The notes under the pieces are model-generated. The model ran no database searches. It was not told where the DNA came from and saw nothing but the letters and a program-made list of their open reading frames with translations. From the IMG/VR virus record IMGVR_UViG_3300038456_000006, positions 1 through 31,340 of that record: 31,340 nucleotides of DNA; one strand, given 5' to 3'. Shown one piece after another: positions 14,865-31,216 of the stretch; within the stretch, counting starts at the first letter, position 1; each line of letters begins with the position of its first letter. The position numbers were made by a program, and so were the translations under genes. This DNA is from a virus.

Positions 14865-15018
14865 GTTTCCATAATTAACGTAACGGCCACGGAAAAACAA
14901 TAGTTTTATATGGGGTAAGCGGGGTGGTAACGGTGTGGTAAAAATTATACAATCAAAACTTAATGTTAACTACATATACCCCACATACCCCTATATATTT
15001 AATATTGCTGGATAGAAT
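14865..15018. other. AT-rich divergent intergenic region, left part
   Basis: No gene is visible here. The sequence changes from a G-rich stretch (14911-14940, with repeated GGGGT and GGTAA) to AT-rich DNA holding repeated ACCCC tracts (14978-14991). The G-rich and C-rich tracts could pair partly with each other. A packaging or origin signal is possible but not shown. Confidence 0.4.
14944..14949 (-). promoter_or_regulatory. Possible -10 box for the packaging operon
   Basis: The minus strand reads TATAAT here, a perfect sigma70 -10 hexamer, about 80 nt before the terS start. Seventeen nt upstream the -35 position reads TAGTTA, a 3 of 6 match only. It may need an activator, or may be a chance match in AT-rich DNA. 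Confidence 0.35.
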
Positions 15019-15070
15019 ACCGTATTGTACTATATATTATGTGATACAATACAATATTGTACAATACGGT
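15019..15070. promoter_or_regulatory. Inverted-repeat operator-like region between divergent genes
   Basis: ACCGTATTGTAC (15019-15030) and its exact reverse complement GTACAATACGGT (15059-15070) flank a 28-nt spacer. The palindrome TACAATATTGTA (15050-15061) overlaps the right arm. ATTGTAC/GTACAAT units recur inside. It lies between the leftward terminase operon and the rightward orphan gene at 15163. A repressor or initiator binding site is likely; a large cruciform is also possible. The repeats are read directly; the role is inferred. Confidence 0.6.
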
Positions 15071-15103
15071 TTAGCAATAGCGAGTTTAGGACATGTCGGG
15101 GTG

Positions 15104-15132
15104 TTGATTTTGAGGTAAAACTATTGTATATC
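15104..15132 (+). promoter_or_regulatory. Possible promoter for the orphan gene at 15163
   Basis: TTGATT (15104-15109) and TATATC (15127-15132) are 17 nt apart, each matching four of six consensus bases. The start point would be near 15139, followed by GAGG and the ATG at 15163. It lies just downstream of the inverted repeats, so it could be controlled by them. Confidence 0.4.
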
Positions 15133-15162
15133 TACCTAATAAAATCACATAACGAGGTTAAA

Positions 15163-17598: not shown

Positions 17599-17817
17599 TT
17601 ATTTACCCTTCTTATATGGACGTAACGCCGAGGCGGGTATTACGGCCGCTATCTTGTTGCGCTGTTCGCCAAAATATTTAGAAGGCTTCAACGACTGATA
17701 GACAAGAACGTGCCGCGTTATCGTTATCGGTGGTTGCCGTACACTCATTCCACCAATGAAGGTCGAAGCGAGAACGGTTGCAGCAAAAAGAACCTTAGCT
17801 TTTGTGGCGATATTCAT
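17599..17817 (-). CDS. Small membrane-anchored or secreted protein
   Basis: This 72-aa protein starts MNIATKAKVLFAATVLAS and has a hydrophobic stretch to about residue 24 (FIGGM), which is a signal peptide or single membrane anchor. The rest is basic and polar, ending ALRPYKKGK. AGGAG lies 8 nt before ATG 17817; the longer frame upstream lacks support. Spanin, superinfection-exclusion or envelope protein roles are all possible. It follows the primase-helicase gene. Confidence 0.6.
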   Translation of the reverse strand: MNIATKAKVLFAATVLASTFIGGMSVRQPPITITRHVLVYQSLKPSKYFGEQRNKIAAVIPASALRPYKKGK

Positions 17818-17889
17818 AGGGAAAATCTCCTGGGCGGGTTTCGATTTGGTGACCATATTCGTTATTAACGGAGCCGTCAATAAGAAAAA

Positions 17890-20268
17890 TTAGACCGGAA
17901 AGGGGACGCGGGTATGATTATTAGCATTTTGGTAAGCATGGGAAGCCTCGGCCGGGGTGGTTAGTTGAATGGCCGGGCTGTCTTTATGTATGAAAAGACG
18001 AGGTTTTCCAGCGTCCGGCATGACTGTATTGTTAACCCGGCCTTCGGCAAGCGCAGGGTGATAAATATATCCCATATTTTCTAAAAGTTCTTTACGCTTT
18101 AGGTGAGTAAGACGGCGTTGCATTCCGATTCGCTCCAACAACATTTCAAGTTGTATAGACGAAATCCAACCGCCACAGAAACCGGGTTTTTCCTGGGCTA
18201 TAGCTTCTAAAATTTCCTGTTCGACCGCTCCGGACCCGGCTTTAATTGCCGCCGCCGTCGACGTTGTGACCGGCGCGCGCTGGCAATCCGTGGCGGGATT
18301 AAATTCATTTGGGATAGGGAATGTATGTAACAGTTCCGAAACGATTGCGTAACCTTCGGCGCGAAGCCATTTATAGAGATTGGGGAAATAGTCGCCGTCC
18401 ATACCGTCACGTTTTAAATCTTGCATTTGTTGTTGCGCGCAGAACAGAACGCAAATGCGACGGTCGTTTTGTGTCTTCCGTAAGCCGTCCTTATGGTTAC
18501 TGTTGAATATAAAATTGGCGACGACCGATTGCATAACCTGGTCGGTTTGCATGGCACGTTTGGCGAGTTTGTCGCCGGTAATCATCGGCTTTAATATCTC
18601 GAAAATTTCCTGTTTCTGGTTCGGAACGTAAATGTCTTCCACGCCAATAAAGACCATATCGAAAAGCCAAGAATTAAACTTTTCGCTAATTTCATGGGCG
18701 GGCGGGAAGTGAACGTAACGCGTCCCAATTGCCTCGGCGACGCACCGTGTAAATAGTGTTTTTCCATTGCCTTCTACCCCCTGCAAAAGCGGCGCCCATT
18801 GGAACTTGACGCCTTTGTATTGAACACACGCGGCCATATAACAAAGTAAAATATGGCGGTCCCGCGCATCCGGCAACACTTTCGCCAGGTGTTCGAGAAA
18901 CGGTTTCGGATTACCTTCTTTGCGCGCGACTTCAACCGGCCAAAAAGTATTTACGAACCGTTGCCCGTTAATTTCGATAATCGCGGCCGGGTGCAAATCA
19001 GGGCGAAAAATTGGGAGGTCAACCTTTGGCGCGCGGAACGATTGGCTTTGTGTAAAAGCCTCGAACGCGTCTTTGCTTGTCTTTGAATTGGCGGGGTCAA
19101 TTGTAAATGTGTAACCACCGAACGCGACGCGAAATTGTTCCGGCCGCAATAAGTTTCCGCCAGGCACAAGGACACGGTGAATATCGCGGATATAGACGCA
19201 CCCGGAGAATAGGTCGGCTTGCATGTCGGCATTAAGATACGTCGCTCCTGTTACGGGAACGGGTCTAGGCTTCTCCGGATTAGTCGCGGAAGGCAACGGG
19301 CCGGTGGGTTGTTGGACGGGTTCGGGCGCCTTGTCCGTAAGAACGTCGAATTGACGCCCCACCGCACCGATAATCGTACGCGGTAAATAGTCTTCACGTT
19401 CCCATTTTTCGCGCACCAACGCCGACCGGTGCATAAGTTGCATCATTCGTTCGCAGTTCTTGCCCGTCCAGAAAGCCAAATGTTGCGCTAAGGCGGCGTC
19501 CGCGCTTGACGCGTCATATGGGCGTATGGCGTCGGGATAGCAACGTGAGAGTGCCGCAAGGTTGGCGGTCCATAAGTCGGCAAAGCTTGCCCGTCCGCCG
19601 AACGCGGCCGCGCTTGATTGCGAACGCAACATACGGCGAATCAATTCGTCGTCGTCGGAAGGCCCGCGCCACTCGGCCACGGGTTCGGTTGTCCAACCCT
19701 GCGCGACGCCTTGACTTGTACCGTCAGGTGGGAAGTATAATTGCACAAGCGACGGCAATAGGGCGCTTAGGTCCGTTGAGGCGTCGCCCACGGCGTCGCG
19801 GCCTGTCAGAGCGACGAACCTCCCGGTATGGTAAAATTCAAGGCCGTACGTCTCGTTCTTGCAACCGTGGAGCGGCGGGCGGCCGGAACCGAATATATGA
19901 AGCCCCTTACCGCTTTGGGACACTTCCACGGCGGCGCCCGCCAAGCTTTGGCATAAGACCTTTGCGACAGGCGACCAATCGGAGCCGTCGGGTAATAGGC
20001 AATTGTCCAGGTCGAGAAACCAAAACGGGTCGTCTTCGGTAAATACAAACCCGACACCGTAAGTTTCTCCGTACTGCGCGGCCGACGCAATAGCCGTGGC
20101 CGCGTCCGTCCAATACGCCGCGTCATGTGCGGACACGACGCGCCCGGTCCTAAAATCAACGGGGAACTTATCAGTTTTGCCCGGCCGATTTTTACTAGGA
20201 ACAGCAACGTAATTTATGAATTTCTTATACCTAGAAAATGGCTCTAGCGCGGCGGGCAATTCACGCAT
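17890..20268 (-). CDS. Primase-polymerase/helicase (NrS-1-like, DUF5906 helicase)
   Basis: This 792-aa protein probably primes and unwinds DNA at the fork. The N-terminal archaeo-eukaryotic primase domain (about 1-180) has FLDLDN (D86, D88), SQSGKGLHIFG (H124) and LEFYHTGRFVALTG (E144 near the third motif), with GVGFVF at 71-76. A linker follows, rich in proline near 315-340. The SF3-type helicase (about 440-660) has Walker A GVEGNGKT (497-504), Walker B VFIGVEDIY (539-547), a sensor region NFIFNSNHKDGL (585-596) and R603/R604. This is the architecture of the NrS-1 phage polymerase. The start lies next to the TetR-like gene's stop with a weak ribosome site, so coupled translation is likely. 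Whether it also extends DNA cannot be told from sequence. Confidence 0.85.
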   Translation of the reverse strand: MRELPAALEPFSRYKKFINYVAVPSKNRPGKTDKFPVDFRTGRVVSAHDAAYWTDAATAIASAAQYGETYGVGFVFTEDDPFWFLDLDNCLLPDGSDWSPVAKVLCQSLAGAAVEVSQSGKGLHIFGSGRPPLHGCKNETYGLEFYHTGRFVALTGRDAVGDASTDLSALLPSLVQLYFPPDGTSQGVAQGWTTEPVAEWRGPSDDDELIRRMLRSQSSAAAFGGRASFADLWTANLAALSRCYPDAIRPYDASSADAALAQHLAFWTGKNCERMMQLMHRSALVREKWEREDYLPRTIIGAVGRQFDVLTDKAPEPVQQPTGPLPSATNPEKPRPVPVTGATYLNADMQADLFSGCVYIRDIHRVLVPGGNLLRPEQFRVAFGGYTFTIDPANSKTSKDAFEAFTQSQSFRAPKVDLPIFRPDLHPAAIIEINGQRFVNTFWPVEVARKEGNPKPFLEHLAKVLPDARDRHILLCYMAACVQYKGVKFQWAPLLQGVEGNGKTLFTRCVAEAIGTRYVHFPPAHEISEKFNSWLFDMVFIGVEDIYVPNQKQEIFEILKPMITGDKLAKRAMQTDQVMQSVVANFIFNSNHKDGLRKTQNDRRICVLFCAQQQMQDLKRDGMDGDYFPNLYKWLRAEGYAIVSELLHTFPIPNEFNPATDCQRAPVTTSTAAAIKAGSGAVEQEILEAIAQEKPGFCGGWISSIQLEMLLERIGMQRRLTHLKRKELLENMGYIYHPALAEGRVNNTVMPDAGKPRLFIHKDSPAIQLTTPAEASHAYQNANNHTRVPFPV

Positions 20269-20272
20269 TGAC

Positions 20273-20581
20273 TTAGACCAAGGTTTGAAGTGCTGCCGTT
20301 CTTATTTGTGTCGGGGCTTTCGCGGCAATACCGTCGTTACAAGCGATACCTTGCGCAACGATTGCAAGGTTCTCTTTCTGGACGGCGGCGCGCATGACGG
20401 CACGTTTAAGACTTATCATTGTGCCGAAATATCGCGACACAAGACCTTCCGTGCAAGTCGCCTCGGCCGCCACGGCCGCGCGCGTGAGCCGGGCGTAACT
20501 GCCCGGTTTCTCCGCGACACGGATTGCGGCCGTAAGAATCTCCGATTTTCGGTCGCGTGGACTAAGGCGCTTGTGTGACAT
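20273..20581 (-). CDS. TetR-like DNA-binding protein, minimal
   Basis: This 102-aa protein has a TetR-type N-terminal domain: KSEILTAAIRVAE (helix 1), then a helix-turn-helix LTRAAVAAEATCTEGLVSRY (32-51) followed by F52 and SLKRAVMRAAV (57-67). The Y-F pair and the following helix are typical of TetR. The usual ligand-binding and dimer domain of 120 or more residues is absent, with only about 35 residues after it. It may therefore be a phage regulator or accessory DNA-binding protein of the replication operon. It lies just before the primase-helicase gene, and its stop is 4 nt from that ATG. Confidence 0.65.
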   Translation of the reverse strand: MSHKRLSPRDRKSEILTAAIRVAEKPGSYARLTRAAVAAEATCTEGLVSRYFGTMISLKRAVMRAAVQKENLAIVAQGIACNDGIAAKAPTQIRTAALQTLV

Positions 20582-21843: not shown

Positions 21844-21916
21844 ATTCTTCTCCATCTTTCCGCCCCGCGTCATAAGCATCTTCAAGAGCAATCATTACGA
21901 TGTCTTGCAGTGCCAT
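21830..21916 (-). CDS. Possible 28-aa overlapping small gene
   Basis: The frame reads MALQDIVMIALEDAYDAGRK followed by DGEEYART. The YDAGRKDGEEYA part resembles the Y-x-A-G-x-x-D-G motif that ends many small phage proteins. GGAAG lies 5 nt before the ATG. It overlaps the end of the 190-aa gene by 35 nt and the next gene's start by 14 nt in different frames. It could be a real short gene bridging the two or the relic of a longer one. Confidence 0.4.
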   Translation of the reverse strand: MALQDIVMIALEDAYDAGRKDGEEYART

Positions 21917-22454
21917 TGTTTCTTCCGTCCCCATGCCATGGCCGAGCTTTGACCAGAACAAATTTATGATCCCTGTAGCGCGGTTGCATGAGGAGAAGGC
22001 CGTCTTTATAGAATTTAAGACCCTCCGGCCAAAGTTCTTTTAATTTTTTGAAGGTACTTACGCTTGAAAGCATCGTTCGCAACTTAAAATCAGTCGCCGC
22101 ACGTTCTGTTTGATAAGCGTATTTGTCTTCGGCAAGTTTTGTAATCTGGTTACCTAAGTCACCGGCAATAACGCCTAAATAGCCGTTCTCGTCAAAATGG
22201 AGAACCGCCACGCTCGCTTTAACGCGTAACCTATGACGTTGACCGCCAACGTTAAAATCAACCCTATCGTTCGTCCGAAGCCAATTCTTGGGAAACTTTT
22301 TTGTTAAGTTGCGAATAGAAATAATAACGGCTTCGTTATAGGCCAGCATACCTATTTTCGATTCTTCTTTCAAAAGGTCTTCATTGCGCTTATCGAACGT
22401 CTCTTTCATAACGCGCGCAATAATAATGTCGATTTGATATTTGGTAAGGCGCAT
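21882..22454 (-). CDS. Protein of unknown function, possibly nucleotide-modification associated
   Basis: This 190-aa protein starts MRLTKYQIDIIIARVMKETF, then a charged helix, KKFPKNWLRTNDRV, and a beta-type VGGQRHRLRVKASVAVLHFD. The opening and the position among early genes recall Nmad5-like phage proteins, but I could not confirm a match. GGAG lies 8 nt before the ATG. The 70-nt gap upstream carries the 19-bp motif and a short hairpin, so it may have its own control. The last 12 residues overlap the 28-aa frame and look less protein-like. Confidence 0.5.
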   Translation of the reverse strand: MRLTKYQIDIIIARVMKETFDKRNEDLLKEESKIGMLAYNEAVIISIRNLTKKFPKNWLRTNDRVDFNVGGQRHRLRVKASVAVLHFDENGYLGVIAGDLGNQITKLAEDKYAYQTERAATDFKLRTMLSSVSTFKKLKELWPEGLKFYKDGLLLMQPRYRDHKFVLVKARPWHGDGRNNGTARHRNDCS

Positions 22455-22503: not shown

Positions 22504-22522
22504 TACTAACGGTATAGTCAAT
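22504..22522 (-). promoter_or_regulatory. 19-bp intergenic motif, copy 2
   Basis: The minus strand reads ATTGACTATACCGTTAGTA, differing from copy 1 (25301-25319) at two positions. Its 3' end is 49 nt before the ATG at 22454, nearly the same distance as copy 1 from its gene. A 5-bp hairpin (CGGGC, 22488-22492, with GCCCG, 22498-22502) follows it; no U-tract is present, so it is not a terminator. Confidence 0.55.
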
Positions 22523-22524
22523 AG

Positions 22525-22992
22525 CTAAAAAGTTCCCTCGCCACTACAAAACGCCGCGTCACCTCCGGCCGACGCTACAAGTTGCAACCAAGCGAGTTGC
22601 GCGCGCTCGCGTTCGTCGCCTGTATATTTCCAACCTTTTTCTTTGCATTCCCGCGCGACAAACTGCGCGATAGTAACACCGCCGACGGTCACAGGGCGCC
22701 AACCGATTAAGTCGGATGATTTAATAACTTTGTTGACGGCGGGCGAATCATTTGCCAGGCCATAGCGAACAGGTCGACCGGTCAAATCTTTTAAGACGCC
22801 CACGTTGTTGCGGAATAGGCGAACACCTTTGCGCGCGGCTTCCAATCTAACGGTACTTTGCACGGCCGCTTCCGACACGCCTTGTTTCGGCGCCACATGC
22901 TCGCCGTTCATTCCGAAAATGTATTGCAGTTCGTGTAACGCTTGGGCGCTAACCCTGTTGCGTATCGCCCATTGCGTTATTGCGTCGTTCAT
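22525..22992 (-). CDS. VRR-NUC domain nuclease
   Basis: This 155-aa protein is a PD-(D/E)XK nuclease of the VRR-NUC type, as found alone in many phages. Conserved points are VRLEAARKGVRLFRNN (E51), SSDLIGWRPV (D94) and FVARECKEKGW (E115 and K117, the E-x-K pair), then ERAQLAWLQLV and DAAFCSG. It may act on branched DNA in recombination or repair. I use ATG 22992, preceded by GGTGGAAA; an ATG seven codons earlier lacks a site. It overlaps its upstream neighbour by 44 nt in another frame. The SF2 helicase and other DNA genes share the operon. Confidence 0.85.
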   Translation of the reverse strand: MNDAITQWAIRNRVSAQALHELQYIFGMNGEHVAPKQGVSEAAVQSTVRLEAARKGVRLFRNNVGVLKDLTGRPVRYGLANDSPAVNKVIKSSDLIGWRPVTVGGVTIAQFVARECKEKGWKYTGDERERAQLAWLQLVASAGGDAAFCSGEGTF

Positions 22993-23158
22993 TTTCCACC
23001 ACCATTTTTGCATATTTCATAAAGTCCATTTGCGCACAGTATTCGAGCGTAAAACAACCGTTATATGCTCGTTGCCGCGCCAAGAAGTCGGCGGAATAGG
23101 CTTCCCTTTCGTACTCGAACGGAAAGCCGCAAATTTTGCATGGTATCGTAATTTTCAA
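22949..23158 (-). CDS. Small cysteine-pair protein of unknown function (TTG start)
   Basis: This 69-aa protein probably starts at TTG 23158. AAGGTGG lies 6 nt upstream, and the TTG overlaps the previous stop as TTGA. It opens with ITIPCKICGFPFEYEREAY; CxxC could be half of a zinc site, with C34 and C40 as other candidates. The helical C-terminus overlaps the VRR-NUC start. An in-frame GTG at 23167 has no site. The function is unknown. Confidence 0.5.
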   Translation of the reverse strand: MKITIPCKICGFPFEYEREAYSADFLARQRAYNGCFTLEYCAQMDFMKYAKMVVENERRNNAMGDTQQG

Positions 23159-23535
23159 ATTAGCCACCTTATAAGTTCTTTTATCGCTTCCCAATTATGC
23201 ACGTCTATTGCCGCCTCAAATTTGGCCAATGTTTCGTTGCTAAAAATGGACAAATCGCGTTCGCGGCATTCGTCTAATAACGATTCGTCGTCGGTCCAAC
23301 TTAATATTGTTTTGGGTGGTATAATCGCATCTTCACCGTCTTTAAGTTCTGGAAATTCTGGCATCGCGTTTCGCCGTTGCATTTCTCGAATCAAAACATC
23401 GTCAGGAAAACAACGCAAGGCGGTTCTCATTTGGGCGGCGTTCGGACGCATACTAATTTCGAGCGCCATTTTATGATAGTTCATGCTTTGTTTAAGCAAC
23501 GCATCAGCCCATGTTTTAAGCTCTTTATTATCCAT
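23155..23535 (-). CDS. Protein of unknown function
   Basis: This 126-aa protein begins MDNKELKTWADALLKQSMNY and is helical throughout, with FPDDVLIREMQRRNAMPEF, then LSWTDDESLLDECRERDLSI and NWEAIKELIRWLI. I chose ATG 23535, whose A is shared with the helicase stop (TAATG), with AAGGAAG 6 nt upstream. The longer frame upstream is only an overlap with the helicase gene. No family is recognised. Confidence 0.6.
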   Translation of the reverse strand: MDNKELKTWADALLKQSMNYHKMALEISMRPNAAQMRTALRCFPDDVLIREMQRRNAMPEFPELKDGEDAIIPPKTILSWTDDESLLDECRERDLSIFSNETLAKFEAAIDVHNWEAIKELIRWLI

Positions 23536-25289
23536 TACGCTTCCTTTCGTGAAAAATAAGTCGCGGCATTTACCGTACCGTCGACACCGAATTTCTTTAG
23601 TTCCGCCATGATGCGCCCGGCCAGGTCGGACGCCTCGCGGGCGCCGAGCGTTTGCGCGTTCGCAACGTCCGTACCAAACTTGAAATAGAACCGGCGGTAA
23701 CTCTCGCTCTCGCCGCGCCCAAATGAACTTTCGACGCCAGCCCACCAGGCAATCGCGTTACGCAAATTATGTTGCGCCGTTTGCCTTGCCATGTGGTTAC
23801 GACGTGCCGCTATTTGGGCTTCGGTCGACAAACCTTGCGGCGCGTAAAAGTCGCCGTCAATTCGGTTTTTCTCTCCGCGTAACGCCTTCAACGTTTCGGG
23901 GTCAAGTTCGGTCAAGTCGCCGTCAACATATTCCGGCGCGCTCCGCAATACCGGTTCGGGGTAATGTCCACAGAAAGGGCAACGTTTTAGAATACGTTCG
24001 TAAGGTTGAACGCATACGGGATTGCCGCAAACGCGTAACGGGATGCCGTCAAAGTCTTTCTTGGCGCGGCGCTCCCGCCGTCCCAAAGACCATTCGCGTT
24101 CCGCGTCCGGCAAGCCGTGGCGTAGAACATTGCTTACATGGTCAATAATCAATGCTACCGGCTTCTCACTTGCTGCAATTGCCGCGCGGCGCCCTTCGTC
24201 GGTCAATGACATATGAACCTTGGCCGCTTCCGGTGAAAGCATAAGGCGCAACGCCCGGCCGAATTGTTGGCAAAAAAGCGCGAATGATTCGGTAGGTCGC
24301 GCAAAGCTTACGACTTCAATTGCAGGAAGGTCGAAGCCTTCGCCGAACAAATCGACATTGACGAGTTGCAAAATCTCACGATTGCGGAAGCGCCTTAAAA
24401 TTTGTTGGCGTAACCCGTCCGGCGTTTTGGCGCTTACAACTTCCGCCGGTACGCCGCGCGCGCGAAATGCAGCGGCAATTTCCACGGCCGCGTCAACGTC
24501 CACGGCAAAGGTTACGCCAAGTTTGCCCGGCGCGAGTTTCAAATAATGGTCTACAACGTCGCCCGTGATATGGGATTTATGAACCGCCTTACGCACCTGG
24601 TCCGCGTTAAAGTCGCCGGTCGTGCCGCTAACTGCGACGTTGCTTAAATCAAGGTCGGACGGTGGCGCGAAAATGCGATAATCGGTAAGGTATCCTTTGT
24701 TGATAATATCCCGCATTGACGGGCCGGTAACCATAGCGTCAACTAATCCCTCCGCGTGTCGGCCTAAGCCGCGACCGTCCGCGCGACACGGCGTTGCCGT
24801 GGGGAACAATCCGTGTGCGTATGGGAAAAGCAATACCGTCTTGCCCCATTTATTTTCTTTCAAAACATGGTGTCCCTCGTCTTGAATTTGCAAACGAACT
24901 TGTCTAAACCAATCGTCCATAGGGTCCATACGCACGACGGTATCAACACCACCGACGCCCGTTTTAGCGTTAGGGTCAAAATATGAATAACCGAGTTCCG
25001 CCATATGAAGCGCGGCAAGAACGCGAATCAAGTTCGAGCCTTTACGGGCGCCAATAAGTCTATGCCGAACACCGTTGCGCGCGAGCGCAATAGACATTTG
25101 ACTAATCAATTCTTGCCTGTGGGCGATAGCGGCCGAGGCGCCCGGCTCGTCGCTCGCAATCTTGGCGAAAATGGCGGTTTTACCGCCACCGGTTGCAAGA
25201 ACGGGCATTACATTTTGAGCGCCCGATTGCCAGGCATTATATATATCTAACTCAATTTGTTGTTGGTAGGGTCGGAGTTGGACGGGCAT
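23535..25289 (-). CDS. SF2 helicase with C-terminal zinc ribbon
   Basis: This 584-aa protein is a DEAH-type superfamily 2 helicase of the phage type. Motifs are RPYQQ (6-10), Walker A ATGGGKT (32-38), DEGHH (137-141), TATP (164-167), LFGEGFDLPAI (314-324) and QQFGRALR (341-348). A four-cysteine zinc ribbon follows (C421, C426, C437, C440). A charged C-terminal helix completes it. It likely remodels forks or recombination intermediates with the phage nuclease and primase. It heads the leftward operon: a good promoter lies 27-55 nt upstream and AGGAAAAG precedes the ATG at 25289. Confidence 0.88.
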   Translation of the reverse strand: MPVQLRPYQQQIELDIYNAWQSGAQNVMPVLATGGGKTAIFAKIASDEPGASAAIAHRQELISQMSIALARNGVRHRLIGARKGSNLIRVLAALHMAELGYSYFDPNAKTGVGGVDTVVRMDPMDDWFRQVRLQIQDEGHHVLKENKWGKTVLLFPYAHGLFPTATPCRADGRGLGRHAEGLVDAMVTGPSMRDIINKGYLTDYRIFAPPSDLDLSNVAVSGTTGDFNADQVRKAVHKSHITGDVVDHYLKLAPGKLGVTFAVDVDAAVEIAAAFRARGVPAEVVSAKTPDGLRQQILRRFRNREILQLVNVDLFGEGFDLPAIEVVSFARPTESFALFCQQFGRALRLMLSPEAAKVHMSLTDEGRRAAIAASEKPVALIIDHVSNVLRHGLPDAEREWSLGRRERRAKKDFDGIPLRVCGNPVCVQPYERILKRCPFCGHYPEPVLRSAPEYVDGDLTELDPETLKALRGEKNRIDGDFYAPQGLSTEAQIAARRNHMARQTAQHNLRNAIAWWAGVESSFGRGESESYRRFYFKFGTDVANAQTLGAREASDLAGRIMAELKKFGVDGTVNAATYFSRKEA

Positions 25290-25300
25290 ATTCTTTTCCT

Positions 25301-25319
25301 ATTGACGATACCGTTATTA
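25301..25319 (+). promoter_or_regulatory. 19-bp intergenic motif, copy 1
   Basis: The plus strand reads ATTGACGATACCGTTATTA. It lies in the 78-nt divergent spacer, 48 nt before the ATG at 25368, and covers the -10 box of the leftward promoter. Relatives occur at 22504-22522 (17 of 19 identical) and 30922-30940 (16 of 19). TTGACG could be a -35 box, but no -10 follows at normal distance, so an activator or a phage-specific polymerase site is possible. Confidence 0.6.
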
Positions 25320-25344
25320 TCTGCAAGTGTGCGCAACAAGTCAA
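25316..25344 (-). promoter_or_regulatory. Sigma70-type promoter for the leftward early operon
   Basis: On the minus strand TTGACT (25344-25339) and GATAAT (25321-25316) are separated by exactly 17 nt. Each differs from consensus at one base. The expected start is near 25309, about 20 nt before the helicase ATG. The -10 box overlaps the 19-bp motif copy at 25301-25319, so a protein bound there would block it. Confidence 0.75.
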
Positions 25345-25367
25345 CCACTCAAACAAGGAATCGCCCT

Positions 25368-26174
25368 ATGAAAGTCACCATTGACACCAACGAACTTACC
25401 GCCGAACAACGTCCGGCATTTAACGTCTTGATGTTGAAGCTTATCGGCGTGGTAAAAGAAAAAATGGAATATACCTCGCAACTTGTCGAGCAAAATTCCG
25501 AACCAACAACAACACCGGCCGTCGCCAATCCCCCTTTACCACAAAACGTTATTGTTACCGGACCCGGCGGCGTCGAACTCGACTCAAACGGTTTACCTTG
25601 GGACGCTCGTATTCATTCCGAAGGTCGCGCTAAACTTACCGACGGTGGTTGGAGAAAACGACGCAACGTTGCGCCGGAACTTTTCGCACAAGTTGAAACG
25701 GAACTTCGCGCGCTTATGGCCGTTCCGCAAGGACCAACTCCCGAACAAGCGTTTGCCGCACAGGTTACGACCGCAACGGGTATTGTTCCACAAGCGCCAG
25801 CCCCCGCAACGTTCGTACCGGCGCCCCCACCACCCGCGCCTATTGCACAACCTACACCCGACCCGCTTGCAATTCCTGCTTTCCTTGACCGTTCGTTACA
25901 AGCTGCACAGGTCGCCCCACCACCTCCACCCGTCGTTACCGCAGCGCCCGCACCGGCTCCCGTCGTAGCAACAGGTGCAACACAACAAGACCTTTACATT
26001 GCTCTTGTTGGTCGTGCGTCAGCCGCCGTACAGGCTGGTAAAATTACGCAAGAAGAAATCGCGACCGCTTGCACCAAATTTGGTGTTCCCGCGCTTCCTC
26101 TCGTTTGTAATCGCCCCGATTTGCTCGGTGTTATTGCAAACGAAATCGACACTATCATTGCGAGTCGCGTATAA
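25368..26174 (+). CDS. Replication-cassette protein with WDARIH motif and proline-rich linkers
   Basis: This 268-aa protein has a helical start (1-45), then LDSNGLPWDARIHS and LTDGGWRKRRNV (71-101). I recognise this motif pair from uncharacterised proteins encoded beside DUF2800/DUF2815 genes in other phages. Two long Pro/Ala segments follow (about 142-167 and 183-200) and then a helical C-terminal domain with QDLYIALVGRASAAVQAGK and LLGVIANEIDTI. The linkers suggest two domains that tether partners. ATG 25368 has AAGGAA 8 nt upstream; the 37 in-frame codons before it lie in the control region and were rejected. Its TAA shares one base with the next ATG. Confidence 0.7.
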   Translation: MKVTIDTNELTAEQRPAFNVLMLKLIGVVKEKMEYTSQLVEQNSEPTTTPAVANPPLPQNVIVTGPGGVELDSNGLPWDARIHSEGRAKLTDGGWRKRRNVAPELFAQVETELRALMAVPQGPTPEQAFAAQVTTATGIVPQAPAPATFVPAPPPPAPIAQPTPDPLAIPAFLDRSLQAAQVAPPPPPVVTAAPAPAPVVATGATQQDLYIALVGRASAAVQAGKITQEEIATACTKFGVPALPLVCNRPDLLGVIANEIDTIIASRV

Positions 26175-27319
26175 TGGCCGGGTTACACTCGCCGTTGCCC
26201 CCTTCGGGGGCGGCGGCTTGGGTAAATTGCGCGATGTGGCCCGCAATGAACCTACGTTTCCCGCAAGACGATACGCCGGAAAGTCGAGAAGGTAACGCCG
26301 CGCATTGGGTTTTGCCTGCGATGCTTAAAGGCGAGACGGTAGCCGTCGGCACACCCACGCCCTTTAACATGGGCGTTACCGAAGAAATGATAGAAGGGGC
26401 GCAACTTTTCGTAAATACCGTGCGTAAATATATTCCACAGGGAACGCCGATTTACGTTGAACAACCCGTAGCAATCCCTGCCGTCCATAAGGAAAATTGG
26501 GGAACCCCCGACCTGTGGGCTTTAATTGACAACGACACGCTTACGCTCGAACTTTTTGATTATAAGTTTGGTCACAAGTTCGTCGACGAGTTCGACAACT
26601 GGCAATGCCTTGATTACTATTCGGGTATTCTTGACGTTATCGCCAAGATGCTTGGGCGCGGCGCCGGAGAAATCGACCAGGAACTTACGGTTAATGTTCG
26701 TATCATTCAACCGCGTTGTTTCTACAAAGGCGAATCGGTTCGTACCTGGACGTTCTTAGGTTCGGACGTACGCGGTCGAATCAACCAACTCGCAAATGCG
26801 GCGACAAAAGTTTACGACCCGATTAACGGAACCACCGCAACGACAAATCCGGAATGTGACCATTGCCCCGGCCGCCATGCCTGTAGCGCATTGCAGCTTG
26901 CGGCATATCACGACGCGGAATTTGCCGTGCAATCCGCACCGGTTGAGTTAACTTCCGAAGCCGCCAGCCTTGAACTTAGAATGTTGGAACGTGCGAGCGA
27001 GCGGCTTAACGCCCGTGTTGAAGGGATGCAAGAATACGTTAAAGCCTGCATTCGTTCGGGTAAGCAAACGCCGTACCACCGTGTCGAACAAGGATACGGC
27101 CGTGCGAATTGGACGGTCCCAATTCCACAGGTTATTGCGTTAGGTCAAATGCTCAACGTTGACTTAACAAAACCGGGTGTGAAAACACCCAAACAAGCGC
27201 AAGATGCCGGTATTGACGGTAACGTTATTAAGGCATACAGTCTTGCACCACCGGGAGAATTAAAATTGATTCCGGTTAATCCCTCCGATGCGCGCCGCGT
27301 ATTCGGTAACTCGAACTAA
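26174..27319 (+). CDS. DUF2800 Cas4/RecB-like nuclease with Fe-S cluster motif
   Basis: This 381-aa protein is a PD-(D/E)XK nuclease of the DUF2800 type. The catalytic set is visible as E39/H44 (EGNAAHW), D113 (GTPDLWALID) and D129-x-K131 (LFDYKFG). C19 (AWVNC) and C228, C231 and C237 (PECDHCPGRHAC) form the split four-cysteine pattern of 4Fe-4S nucleases such as Cas4 and AddB. It probably trims DNA ends for recombination or replication. The C-terminal helical region (about 250-381) is of unknown role. It is coupled to the upstream gene by TAATG and followed by the ssDNA-binding protein. Confidence 0.82.
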   Translation: MAGLHSPLPPSGAAAWVNCAMWPAMNLRFPQDDTPESREGNAAHWVLPAMLKGETVAVGTPTPFNMGVTEEMIEGAQLFVNTVRKYIPQGTPIYVEQPVAIPAVHKENWGTPDLWALIDNDTLTLELFDYKFGHKFVDEFDNWQCLDYYSGILDVIAKMLGRGAGEIDQELTVNVRIIQPRCFYKGESVRTWTFLGSDVRGRINQLANAATKVYDPINGTTATTNPECDHCPGRHACSALQLAAYHDAEFAVQSAPVELTSEAASLELRMLERASERLNARVEGMQEYVKACIRSGKQTPYHRVEQGYGRANWTVPIPQVIALGQMLNVDLTKPGVKTPKQAQDAGIDGNVIKAYSLAPPGELKLIPVNPSDARRVFGNSN

Positions 27320-27333
27320 AGGAAAGCCCTACT

Positions 27334-28338
27334 ATGTCACAGAAAGTAAACATTACGTCCCCGGTTGGTCGTATCGTTCGCGGCAATCTCTACGAACCGC
27401 AGAAAACCGATATGGACGGCCGACCCCTCGTTATCAAAAGCGGCCCTAACGCCGGTCAAGCGCGGGTCGATTTTAATTTCGCGCTCGCCATTCCGAAAAA
27501 TCCCGGCGAACAGCATTGGGCGCAAACCCCTTGGGGCGCTCAAATATGGGCGGTTGGTCACCAGGCTTACCCGCAACAAGCCGGACTTCCGGGTTTCTCT
27601 TGGAAGGTCACCGACGGCGACGATCAAACGCCAAGCATGAAAAGCAAACCCCCCGGCAAGCGCCCATGCGATAATGAAGGTTGGAAAGGCCATTGGATTA
27701 TTAAATTTTCGGGCGGCTTTGCTCCGAAGATTTACCAAATCGTCAACGGCAATCCCGTCTTGGTCTTGGAAAAAGATTTTATCAAGCCGGGCTATTATGC
27801 CGAAGTCGCGTTTTCGGTCGACGGCAATACCGGACAGACACCGGGCGTTTACATGAACCATTCAATGGTTTGTTTCCGGGGCTTCGGTCCTGAAATCAGC
27901 TTTGGGCCGGACGTAAGCGCGGCGGGTTTTGGTCAAGCTGCACTTCCACAGGGTGCGAGCGCAATACCTCCCGCAAGTTTGGTCCCTATGCCGGTCGGAG
28001 CTCCGCAACCACAGGTCGGTTACACCCCACCGCCTCCCGTCCTGGGAGCCCCGGCTCCCGGCCCGGTTCCTGGGTATGCCCCTGCAAGCGTTGGTATGGT
28101 TCCGACACCGACGGGCTTTGTTCCGCCTGCCGTCGTCGTACCACCCGCTCCCGTCGTTCCTAACATGGGCTTCGTTGCAGGACCAGGCCCGGCGCCTGCC
28201 CCTGTGGCCGTCCCATTGCCTCCGGCCCCACCGGCCAAGCAAATGACGGCGGCCGCCGGAACAACAGGCTATGCCGCTTATATCGCGGCGGGTTGGACGG
28301 ACGCGTTGTTAATCCAAAACGGCTTGATGATGCCGTAA
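27334..28338 (+). CDS. DUF2815 single-stranded DNA-binding protein with long proline-rich tail
   Basis: This 334-aa protein fits DUF2815, the phage ssDNA-binding family. The N-terminal 200 residues hold the OB-type domain, with KVNITSPVGRIVRGNLYEP, ARVDFNFALAIPKNPGEQHW, and GVYMNHSMVCFRGFGPEISF. Then comes a roughly 95-residue Pro/Gly/Ala/Val-rich linker (about 210-305). The end is a conserved-looking peptide, YAAYIAAGWTDALLIQNGLM (313-332). Tails of ssDNA-binding proteins usually recruit replication partners; here the peptide is not strongly acidic as in T7 gp2.5. GGAAAG lies 8 nt before the ATG. A structured intergenic element follows. Confidence 0.8.
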   Translation: MSQKVNITSPVGRIVRGNLYEPQKTDMDGRPLVIKSGPNAGQARVDFNFALAIPKNPGEQHWAQTPWGAQIWAVGHQAYPQQAGLPGFSWKVTDGDDQTPSMKSKPPGKRPCDNEGWKGHWIIKFSGGFAPKIYQIVNGNPVLVLEKDFIKPGYYAEVAFSVDGNTGQTPGVYMNHSMVCFRGFGPEISFGPDVSAAGFGQAALPQGASAIPPASLVPMPVGAPQPQVGYTPPPPVLGAPAPGPVPGYAPASVGMVPTPTGFVPPAVVVPPAPVVPNMGFVAGPGPAPAPVAVPLPPAPPAKQMTAAAGTTGYAAYIAAGWTDALLIQNGLMMP

Positions 28339-28350
28339 AGGTGTTCCTTG

Positions 28351-28370
28351 TCTCGTCTTAACCGACGAGA
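28351..28370 (+). other. Perfect hairpin after the ssDNA-binding protein gene
   Basis: TCTCGTC (28351-28357) and GACGAGA (28364-28370) form a perfect 7-bp stem with a TTAACC loop. It begins 12 nt after the stop codon. The following bases are not T-rich, so it is not a standard terminator. It may protect the mRNA end or pair with the next element. Confidence 0.5.
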
Positions 28371-28387
28371 TTAATAAGGGACGGAGT

Positions 28388-28440
28388 GCGGCGGGGTGCA
28401 AGTAGCCCGAAAGGCAGACTCAACGCCCCGCCGTATTTTC
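28388..28440 (+). terminator. GC-rich stem with nested hairpin, terminator or structured RNA
   Basis: GCGGCGGGGTG (28388-28398) pairs with CGCCCCGCCGT (28424-28434) in an 11-bp stem with two G-U pairs. Inside the 25-nt loop a small GCC(CGAAA)GGC hairpin (28405-28415) is present, and GAGT just before the stem (28384-28387) could pair with ACTC in the loop (28418-28421). ATTTTCT follows. It may be an attenuating terminator. The nested structure is more elaborate than terminators usually are, so a regulatory RNA or riboswitch-like element is a second option. No gene lies in 28339-28463. Confidence 0.6.
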
Positions 28441-28446
28441 TATAAT
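28441..28446 (+). promoter_or_regulatory. Possible -10 box after the stem
   Basis: TATAAT lies just after the GC-rich stem and 18 nt before the ATG at 28464. The -35 position is occupied by the loop of the stem (ACTCAA) and is poor. A restart promoter for the polymerase genes would make sense after a terminator, but the evidence is only this box. Confidence 0.25.
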
Positions 28447-28463
28447 CACAACGATAAGGAAGA

Positions 28464-28676
28464 ATGACGATGATTGGAACGATGAAAAATATGGACGTAA
28501 CTATGGCCGGGCTTGCCGCCATTGCAGCTTTGACCGGCGCACCGCAACCGCCGCAAATATATTGGGGTCGTCCTAGCCAAAATAAATACGCCGGTAAATG
28601 TAAGGCCATGGCAAGCAAAAAGCCGCGTCATATTCACCTTACGGAATTTATGCGCGATTGGACACCTCGTTACTAA
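28464..28676 (+). CDS. Small protein of unknown function
   Basis: This 70-aa protein reads MTMIGTMKNMDVTMAGLAAI, then APQPPQIYWGRPSQNKYAGK and a basic HIHLTEFMRDWTPRY end. It is cationic. AAGGAAG lies just before the ATG; a second ATG two codons on has better spacing. It precedes the polymerase cluster. No family is recognised. Confidence 0.55.
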   Translation: MTMIGTMKNMDVTMAGLAAIAALTGAPQPPQIYWGRPSQNKYAGKCKAMASKKPRHIHLTEFMRDWTPRY

Positions 28677-28689
28677 AGGAACTACCCAT

Positions 28690-28884
28690 ATGGTCTACGC
28701 TAACGATGTTATACGCTCCCTTAAAGACCTTCCTAACCATAACGGTTTTAAATTTATTGGCGTCAAGAAAGACGGAACGTGCGTTGACTGTCATGTTGAA
28801 CGCGATAGCCAAACAAACACACATTTTGTCGCGGGCGGCGCGGGGTTTGACGAACTACAGGGTTGGAAGTATAAACCAAAATGA
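28690..28884 (+). CDS. Small protein of unknown function before DNA polymerase
   Basis: This 64-aa protein has NDVIRSLKDLPNHNGFKFIG, then KKDGTCVDCHVERDSQTNTH and ends GFDELQGWKYKPK. The alternation of strands and turns suggests a compact beta fold. AAGGA lies about 9 nt before the ATG, and its stop overlaps the polymerase ATG as ATGA. It is probably translated with the polymerase, and could be an accessory subunit; that is inference. Confidence 0.6.
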   Translation: MVYANDVIRSLKDLPNHNGFKFIGVKKDGTCVDCHVERDSQTNTHFVAGGAGFDELQGWKYKPK

Positions 28885-30905
28885 CAGCACCGCCGCCCCC
28901 ACCGGCTACCGGAGGTCGCCCGCGCGCGCTATACGACACGGAATGTTTTCCGAACTATTGGCTTTTGAAAATCAAAGCCTTGACGACGGGCATTATCTAT
29001 ACGTTTCGTCTTCGTGACGGTGAGACGTTCGACACGGCCACGATTGCGCAAATACGTACCTTGTTTGAAATATTTTGCGTAATTAGCTTTAACGGTAATT
29101 ATTACGACGTTCCCATGATTTGCGCGGCCATGTGTGGTTATCGCCCCGACCAACTTAAATGGATGAACGACGAGATAATTTTAAACAAAAAGAAGCCGTG
29201 GGAACTCGGTTTGCCGGAATGGAAGCCGACCGACCATATCGACGTTATGGAAGTTGCGCCAGGCATGGGGTCGCAAAAACAATACGCCGGGCGTATTCAT
29301 TGTAAATTAATGCGCGACCTACCCTATACGCCCGACCGCCGATTGACCGAAGCCGAGATTGTCGAAGTCGAATCGTATTGCGAAAATGACTTGACCGTTC
29401 TAGGCGCGCTTTTTGACGCGCTAAACGCTCAAATTAAGCAACGCGAAATGTTAGGCAAACGCTACGGTATCGACTTGCGCAGCAAATCCGACGCGCAGCT
29501 TGCCGAGGCGGTTCTAAAGTTACGATGCGAACAGGCCACAGGGCGGCGTATTTACAAGCCCGATGTTGATTGGAATATGCGTTTTGTTTACAACGCGCCG
29601 TCATACATTCAATATCAGTTACCCCAACTCCAACGCGCTTTAGAACTTGTCCGGCAATCTATTTTTACCCTCGGTACATCGGGCGGCGTTGAAATGCCTT
29701 CGCAGCTTGAAGGGTTGGAAATAACAATAAATCAATCAACCTATAAAATGGGGATTGGTGGCTTACATAGCCAAGAAAAAAGAACGGTTCATAAATCAGA
29801 CAACGATAACGTACTTTTGGACAAGGACGTTGCCGCCTATTATCCTGCACTTATTCTACAATCCGGCGAATATCCGTCGGCGCTCGGCCCCGCCTTTATC
29901 CAAGAATACGCCGCCATTAAAGCCGAACGTCTCGCCGCGAAAGACTTGCAAGGTAAACTTAAAAAATCCGGTAACATAAAAGGTCCGGAGTTTGAGAAAG
30001 CAAGGGTCGAAAACGAGGGCGGAAAGATTATGATTAACGGGACTTTCGGTAAAACCGGAAGTCCATATAGCGTTTTGTTCGCGCCGACCATGCTTATTCA
30101 AACGACCTTGACCGGGCAACTGTCACTTTTAATGCTTATCGAATGGCACGAACTTTCGGGCATTCCGATTATTTCGGCGAACACCGACGGTATAATTCTC
30201 AAATGCCCGCGTCACCTGGTCGACCATAGTAACCAGCTTGTTGCGGAATGGAAGAAGCGTACGGGACTTGAAATGGAAACGGTCGAATATCGCGCCGTTT
30301 ACTCCCGCGACATTAACAACTATTTCGCAATCAAGACCGACGGTGAAGTTAAGCGTAAAGGTGAATATAGCCAAGCCGGGCTTAACGAAAAGAAAAACCC
30401 CGACGTTGAGATTTGCGCCGACGCCGTGGCCGAGTTCTTATCGAAAGGAACGCCGATAATCTACACGATTGCAGCTTGCCGCGACATTCGCAAATTCGTG
30501 GCCGTCCAGAAAGTTGCGGGCGGCGGCGTCAAAATGTGGGGCGGCGGTGCGCGTAAGGACGCTCGCGTTATGGATATGGTCGGCACACTTGAATCCCACG
30601 GTTGGGTAAAAGAAGGCCGTAAGTGGCGACATGGGGAAATAGTTACGGACGCGCGCACGGCTTATGGCGCATGTTTTAAACCTCAAACGCCAGAATATTT
30701 AGGCAAAGTTGTTCGTTGGTATTACGGATCAAACGCGCCCGGCCCAATTGTTTACGCGACCAACAATAAGACCGTGACCCTTTCTTATGGTGCTAAACCT
30801 TGTATGACGCTCCCCGACGAGTTCCCGAACGATATAGATTATAATTGGTATATTCAACGGGCCGAAGCAATGCTTCAAGATATTGGTTTTTATGTCTTGA
30901 CGTGA
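28881..30905 (+). CDS. Family B DNA polymerase with 3'-5' exonuclease
   Basis: This 674-aa protein replicates the phage DNA. Exonuclease motifs are YDTE (D19, E21), FNGNYYD (N71, D76) and YCEND (Y166, D170). Polymerase motif A is DKDVAAYYPALI (D316), motif B is KIMINGTFG (K382-G390) and motif C is SANTDGII (D436). In motif C the first Asp of the usual DTDS is Asn and the Ser is Gly, a form I recall from other phage polymerases. The N-terminus has APPPPPATGG, resembling the linkers of the two other replication proteins. It has no terminal-protein primer signature, and the primase-helicase at 17890 could supply primers. It overlaps its upstream gene as ATGA. Confidence 0.9.
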   Translation: MTAPPPPPATGGRPRALYDTECFPNYWLLKIKALTTGIIYTFRLRDGETFDTATIAQIRTLFEIFCVISFNGNYYDVPMICAAMCGYRPDQLKWMNDEIILNKKKPWELGLPEWKPTDHIDVMEVAPGMGSQKQYAGRIHCKLMRDLPYTPDRRLTEAEIVEVESYCENDLTVLGALFDALNAQIKQREMLGKRYGIDLRSKSDAQLAEAVLKLRCEQATGRRIYKPDVDWNMRFVYNAPSYIQYQLPQLQRALELVRQSIFTLGTSGGVEMPSQLEGLEITINQSTYKMGIGGLHSQEKRTVHKSDNDNVLLDKDVAAYYPALILQSGEYPSALGPAFIQEYAAIKAERLAAKDLQGKLKKSGNIKGPEFEKARVENEGGKIMINGTFGKTGSPYSVLFAPTMLIQTTLTGQLSLLMLIEWHELSGIPIISANTDGIILKCPRHLVDHSNQLVAEWKKRTGLEMETVEYRAVYSRDINNYFAIKTDGEVKRKGEYSQAGLNEKKNPDVEICADAVAEFLSKGTPIIYTIAACRDIRKFVAVQKVAGGGVKMWGGGARKDARVMDMVGTLESHGWVKEGRKWRHGEIVTDARTAYGACFKPQTPEYLGKVVRWYYGSNAPGPIVYATNNKTVTLSYGAKPCMTLPDEFPNDIDYNWYIQRAEAMLQDIGFYVLT

Positions 30906-30921
30906 ATCGGCGTTTCGTATC

Positions 30922-30940
30922 TATTAACGATAACGTCAAT
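30922..30940 (-). promoter_or_regulatory. 19-bp intergenic motif, copy 3 (diverged)
   Basis: The minus strand reads ATTGACGTTATCGTTAATA, matching copy 1 at 16 of 19 positions. It lies in the 56-nt gap between the polymerase and the GcrA-like gene, 21 nt before the latter's ATG but in the opposite orientation. The orientation argues against a simple promoter here and for a protein-binding site. Confidence 0.4.
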
Positions 30941-30961: not shown

Positions 30962-31216
30962 ATGACGGAATCGCCTTGGTTGCAAGATTTAAACGGTAAA
31001 TGTAGGTATCCTAAAGGTGAAAACCGCCCATTTATTCCCTGTTGCGAACCCACCATACCGGGTAAAGTTTACTGTCCCTGCCATTATAAGGAATGTTATA
31101 CCGGAACTTATAAAGCGTCGAAGAAAATTCGTGGAGAAGTTCCCGCCGTAAAACAGATTGCGTACAGGGGCGCGCAAGCTGTTTCAAACCAAGTCCCCGT
31201 TGAGGTCACGACGTGA
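30962..31216 (+). CDS. GcrA-like zinc-domain protein
   Basis: This 84-aa protein has NGKCRYPKGENRPFIPCCEP followed by GKVYCPCHYKECYTG. The run C14-R-Y-P, C27/C28, then V-Y-C38-P-C-H41 resembles the C-terminal zinc region of GcrA, the alphaproteobacterial cell-cycle regulator, where CRWP and YC..H are conserved. The N-terminal helix-turn-helix of GcrA is absent. Phages of Alphaproteobacteria often encode GcrA-like proteins. It may interact with host transcription, or be an unrelated small zinc protein. AAGG lies 9 nt before the ATG. Confidence 0.55.
   Translation: MTESPWLQDLNGKCRYPKGENRPFIPCCEPTIPGKVYCPCHYKECYTGTYKASKKIRGEVPAVKQIAYRGAQAVSNQVPVEVTT

Follow-up and report, generated by a model that had tools for sequence, protein, structure and literature searches.

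Palindromic sites in a replication module

The window covers the whole of a 31,340-bp IMG/VR record, in which gene starts come from a simple caller. Its replication region comprises leftward genes for a primase/helicase (17890–20268, minus strand, phrog_1829), a small TetR_N-type helix-turn-helix (HTH) protein of 102 aa (20273–20581, minus, phrog_8723, 1.6e-30; the TetR-like protein below), a nuclease (22525–23013, minus, phrog_93, with a weak VRR_NUC match) and a DNA helicase (23535–25289, minus, phrog_16), and rightward genes for a DUF2800 or PD-(D/E)XK-type exonuclease (26174–27319, plus), a Gp2.5-like ssDNA-binding protein (27334–28338, plus, phrog_7011) and a DNA polymerase (28881–30905, plus, phrog_1252). 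A protein matching Nmad5, a nucleotide-modification-associated domain (E = 4.9e-8), is encoded at 21882–22454, directly behind a predicted operator at 22506. An AT-rich non-coding stretch (14907–15160), flanked by the terminase genes and a rightward ORF, holds repeated TACAATA/TATTGTA-like words.

The initial annotation described three copies of a 19-bp motif in intergenic gaps of this region. All three (25301–25319, 22504–22522 and 30922–30940) are present, the identities of 17/19 and 16/19 given for the latter two were reproduced, and the distances of 49 nt to the ATG at 22454 and 48 nt to the ATG at 25368 are correct. The list was incomplete, as the window contains two more copies: one at 17863–17881 (minus), in the gap ahead of the ATG at 17817, for which the intergenic description also holds, and one at 27212–27230 (plus, 17/19), for which it fails, this copy lying inside the DUF2800 ORF. 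The tally for the window is four gap sites and one embedded site. Allowing up to three mismatches, the 19-bp motif has 4 matches in the window against 0.01 expected, a count reached in no shuffle.

The motif proves to be not an asymmetric 19-mer but an imperfect palindrome, TTGACR-N4-YGTCAA (core within the window TTRACG-N4-CGTYAA), predicted to be an operator fused with sigma70 promoters. Because it is palindromic, the strand assigned to a copy means little; the minus orientation given to 30922–30940 was arbitrary, and the promoter there reads rightwards. In the Klebsiella phage MEW1, a de novo search for intergenic palindromes that made no assumption on sequence returned TTGACG-N4-CGTCAA as its top pattern (9 intergenic vs 2 coding sites).

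Two promoter registers

With sites oriented by the following gene, the palindrome sits on sigma70-type promoters (TTGACA-like -35 box, TATAAT-like -10 box, spacing of about 17 bp) in two exact registers, and a 17-bp peak is seen in both classes. In class I the left half of the palindrome is the -35 box and the -10 box follows exactly 17 bp on; these sites usually lie 40–52 nt ahead of the start codon, and a strong -10 box stands exactly 17 bp from TTGACG/TTGACR in 38 of 60 sites. It is this register that accounts for the 48- and 49-nt start-codon distances. The class II palindrome starts with the final two bases of the -10 box, from which a TTGACN is separated by exactly 17 bp on the upstream side; such sites are about 12–22 nt ahead of the start codon, and the register is found in about half of 21 sites, including the helicase promoter of the window and the site at 30924.

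Within the window, the palindrome TTGACGGCTCCGTTAA (17865–17880, minus) forms a class I promoter with -35 TTGACG (17880–17875), a 17-bp spacer and -10 TATGGT (17857–17852) ahead of the ATG at 17817. The palindrome TTGACTATACCGTTAG (22506–22521, minus) is class I by position, with a weak -10 box, CAAACT, and lies upstream of a gene run from 22454 to 17890 that includes the Nmad5-like protein, small ORFs, the TetR-like protein and the primase. In a divergent gap, TTGACGATACCGTTAT (25302–25317) has the class II register relative to the leftward helicase gene, whose promoter (25316–25344, minus) has -35 TTGACT (25344–25339) and, 17 bp on, a -10 box GATAAT (25321–25316) that overlaps the palindrome; relative to the rightward ORF at 25368 the same palindrome has the class I placement, with a weak -10 box, AAGTGT. 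A class II promoter-operator at 30897–30939 (plus) has -35 TTGACG (30897–30902), 17 bp, -10 TCTATT (30920–30925) and palindrome 30924–30939, ahead of the ATG at 30962. Overall, the -10 boxes are good at 17865, 25302 (leftwards) and 27213, and weaker at 30924, 22506 and 25302 (rightwards). Two overlapping promoters face each other in the helicase gap (25289–25368), with TTGAC ... GTCAA at a distance of about 40 bp, a layout also present in TetR-bearing phages that have no palindrome.

The fifth site is a class I promoter-operator within the DUF2800 coding sequence (27213–27241, plus; palindrome 27213–27228, -10 TACAGT 27236–27241), 105 nt ahead of the ssb-like gene at 27334. This copy is matched at the same place in 12 other relatives, 82–94 nt before the stop codon, as TTGACR-N4-YGTCAK-N7-TAYAGT or a near variant. 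The site encodes a G-[IV]-D-x-x-V-I stretch, and its codons GAC and GTC are used even where the preferred codons of the gene differ, the window having GTT for valine. Codon choice and the conserved in-frame -10 box rule out that this copy is a by-product of a conserved peptide; judged on these patterns, it is an embedded promoter and not background.

The second half-site of class I palindromes is conserved as well as the -35 box, though sigma70 has no need of it. Among 94 intergenic promoters of motif-bearing genomes, picked solely by TTGAC and a -10 box, 61 have GTCA at the palindrome position, against 0/26 in TetR-bearing genomes without the motif and 0/13 in genomes without the gene. By this measure of conservation, the second half-site is predicted to be a binding site in its own right.

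Conservation and co-occurrence with a TetR-like gene

IMG/VR relatives recovered through the polymerase and the primase have this module too, with palindromes in the corresponding gaps. Relatives have up to 12 intergenic sites (0–1 mismatch) per genome. Beyond these, the motif is common to many distantly related phages: with at most one mismatch, palindromes number 11 in JD001, 16 in PEAT2, 15 in Geezett, 13 in Pantoea phage AAM22, 9 in CP-T1 and 7 in MSW-3, and the reversed pattern occurs in none of these six. A pattern scan of IMG/VR recovered 55 stretches, whereas a permuted palindrome gave 2. The proposal of the initial annotation, that the motif is a phage regulatory site, is thus supported at the level of sequence, in that IMG/VR relatives and named phages keep the palindrome and in that its copies occur mainly in gaps and on promoters rather than being equally frequent inside genes.

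Each of the 21 motif-bearing genomes encodes the TetR_N protein within this replication module (in G011 and G013 its gene was detected by profile search); the ssb family is likewise present in 21/21. In the 33 TetR-bearing genomes there are 171 palindromes against 16 reversed patterns (91 vs 0 with a promoter), whereas the genomes without the gene, a small set of 7 of which one has a weak match, hold 9 palindromes against 6 reversed (0 vs 1 with a promoter). G014, a relative of the module that has no TetR-like gene, also has no motif. Of 49 IMG/VR records collected solely by the promoter-palindrome DNA pattern, those 20 kb or longer carry the TetR-like gene in 11/12 cases with at least three sites and in 1/16 with fewer; Jedunavirus-like phages dominate the large-count records, so that these cases are not independent and phage kinship inflates the counts.

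In MEW1, G003 and G017 a palindrome stands 42 nt ahead of the TetR-like gene itself. A site at this gene has the same deviant half, TTGACC, in MEW1 (L022; 19937), JD001 (29902), PEAT2 (14143), Geezett (44399) and AAM22 (40278), and this half, shared by Jedunavirus-like phages, looks as if the gene had its own tuned operator. A TetR-bearing relative, L012 (G010), has the same half-site with a shorter spacer at 34782 of its record (ATTGACACAACGTCAAT), and a de novo search there favours TTGACA-N3-TGTCAA.

About 11–12 TetR-bearing relatives have no palindrome, and in most of them the recognition helices differ, which would fit a changed operator. A search for an alternative operator in these phages established none; their helicase gaps keep facing TTGAC boxes.

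Taken as a single sequence, the protein at 20273–20581 matches Pfam TetR_N at E = 7.9e-4, below the gathering score, and a profile of 20 of its relatives matches TetR-family chains with a best E of 3.5e-9. Its predicted structure (pLDDT 93.8) reaches Z of about 9–11 to TetR-family chains in structure comparison, and Foldseek alone gave no match below E = 0.001 for this short model. A TetR_N HTH is therefore present; beyond it and helix 4, short helices spanning only about 30 aa stand in place of the usual C-terminal ligand-binding and dimerisation domain (about 120–150 aa); since this large domain is missing, we class the protein as a TetR_N-domain protein and not a full-length TetR regulator. 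Searching with the window protein, tblastn found matches in 63 of 50,697 phage-collection records, and a single-protein scan of IMG/VR found no relative. Several relatives encode a longer form of about 167 aa (L018:9504–10001, L014:9394–9891, L119:6523–7026) with a second HTH-like segment at the N-terminus (INLSR..LCE.AGI..GSFPHVMG).

A candidate genome-wide repressor

On these sequence patterns and the structural model, we consider it likely that the motif, built into promoters of the host sigma70 type, serves as operator for a genome-wide repressor encoded by the phage, with the TetR_N-type protein at 20273–20581 as the likeliest binder; this protein probably reads the palindrome as a repressor. 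A dimer would bind TTGACR-N4-YGTCAA, covering the -35 box and upstream spacer at class I sites (about -36 to -21) and the -10 end and start region at class II sites (about -8 to +8), and in either position would exclude RNA polymerase. Because occupancy of either interval would block the polymerase, repression would be the likeliest outcome. Host polymerase would fire the helicase and replication promoters early, and the accumulating TetR-like protein would then shut them off; as its gene lies in a run behind two operators, self-repression would follow. Such negative autoregulation, together with a shut-off of early replication genes, is suggested by the palindromes 42 nt ahead of this gene in several relatives and by its position downstream of operators in the window. 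It is from the palindrome, the promoter registers, conservation, co-occurrence with the TetR-like gene and the predicted fold that we infer binding, repression, timing and autoregulation.

It is unlikely, in our judgement, that the same promoter-operator layout is read by something else, be it a host regulator or a different phage protein (the VRR-type nuclease, for example), with the TetR-like protein merely travelling along. The whole replication module is shared, so that its genes co-occur in any case, and the presence of the ssb family in every motif-bearing genome likewise counts against our preferred assignment; the nuclease matches HTH_ParB, though very weakly (E = 0.067). However, among predicted sequence-specific DNA binders the TetR-like protein alone is common to all 21 motif-bearing genomes, and binding of a short palindrome by a dimer is typical of the TetR family. 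A single host regulator is disfavoured because phages with the motif have hosts in many genera (Klebsiella, Pectobacterium, Pantoea, Acinetobacter, Shewanella, Vibrio and Edwardsiella).

Activation is improbable: the regulator would bind the palindrome and recruit polymerase, the sites being middle promoters. Class I palindromes do lie close to the -35 box, and some -10 boxes are poor, two of them in the window (22506 and 25302 rightwards), which also counts against repression. Yet class I sites include the -35 box itself and mostly have good -10 boxes, and class II sites cover the start region, which is not a normal position for an activator; it is solely by this geometry that we favour repression over activation.

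We reject, as very improbable, the reading of the palindrome as back-to-back -35 boxes that serve bidirectional transcription with no dedicated regulator. TTGAC can be read on both strands, and -10 boxes flank both sides in 6/21 divergent class I sites, but a reverse-side -10 box is found in just 1/39 non-divergent class I sites (background 2.5% per position) although the second half is fully conserved there, and class II uses the second half in another register. We give hardly any credence to chance or composition, that is, to a functionless motif of AT-rich gaps: the fragment has only five copies, but the expectation for the window, the near-zero reversed-pattern controls and the permuted scan speak against it, and conservation in relatives refutes it.

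The proposed repressor resembles TetR acting at tetO and Escherichia coli RutR in its TetR_N HTH and in a short palindromic operator overlapping promoter boxes, and the RutR site, TTGACCANNTGGTCAA, is closely like the phage palindrome. It differs from the bacterial TetR family in being only about 100 aa long, with short helices after the HTH and without a large ligand-binding domain, and in that it appears to serve many promoters genome-wide. Many copies occur in the gaps of one phage genome, as expected of dispersed operators. Phage P1 provides a parallel, in which one repressor, C1, acts at many scattered operators overlapping promoters; however, P1 has asymmetric operators, unlike the sites here, and its repressor does not belong to the TetR proteins. 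The L5-type repressor of mycobacteriophages, with its dispersed stoperators, is likewise a phage repressor with many operators in gaps (PMC9283540, PMC6550527). According to PMC9283540, stoperators are asymmetric, bind a monomeric repressor and in addition halt elongation; the sites here are, in contrast, palindromic, fused to promoters in two fixed registers, and present also in phages described as lytic.

TetR-like genes have been noted in phages phiPLPE, CP-T1 and 138, with no binding site given (PMC3391216). The gene of CP-T1 (JQ177061.1) belongs to the same HMM family as the window protein, and the CP-T1 genome carries nine palindromes. The repeats listed for these three phages in Table 3 of PMC3391216 are other sequences and do not represent this motif. 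CP-T1 is described as temperate, with no recognised lysogeny genes (PMC3391216). In a speculative extension, which we doubt, the TetR-like protein would act as the master switch of a broad phage group and, through the same operators, would supply the missing immunity repressor of the Vibrio phage CP-T1. A search of genome contigs for a prophage relative of the primase found none, the hits being one 12-kb metagenome-assembled contig and one weak 34-residue match.

Literature searches of openly accessible papers found no earlier description of the operator. If our reading of the sequences is right, it would assign a function, together with a target sequence and predicted regulon, to a family annotated solely as "TetR-like" or "unknown", in phages among which is the Klebsiella Jedunavirus group. 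It would also predict the controlled promoters to the base and account for a promoter hidden inside a gene, and the protein would be a specific candidate for the cause of the temperate behaviour of CP-T1, so far unexplained.
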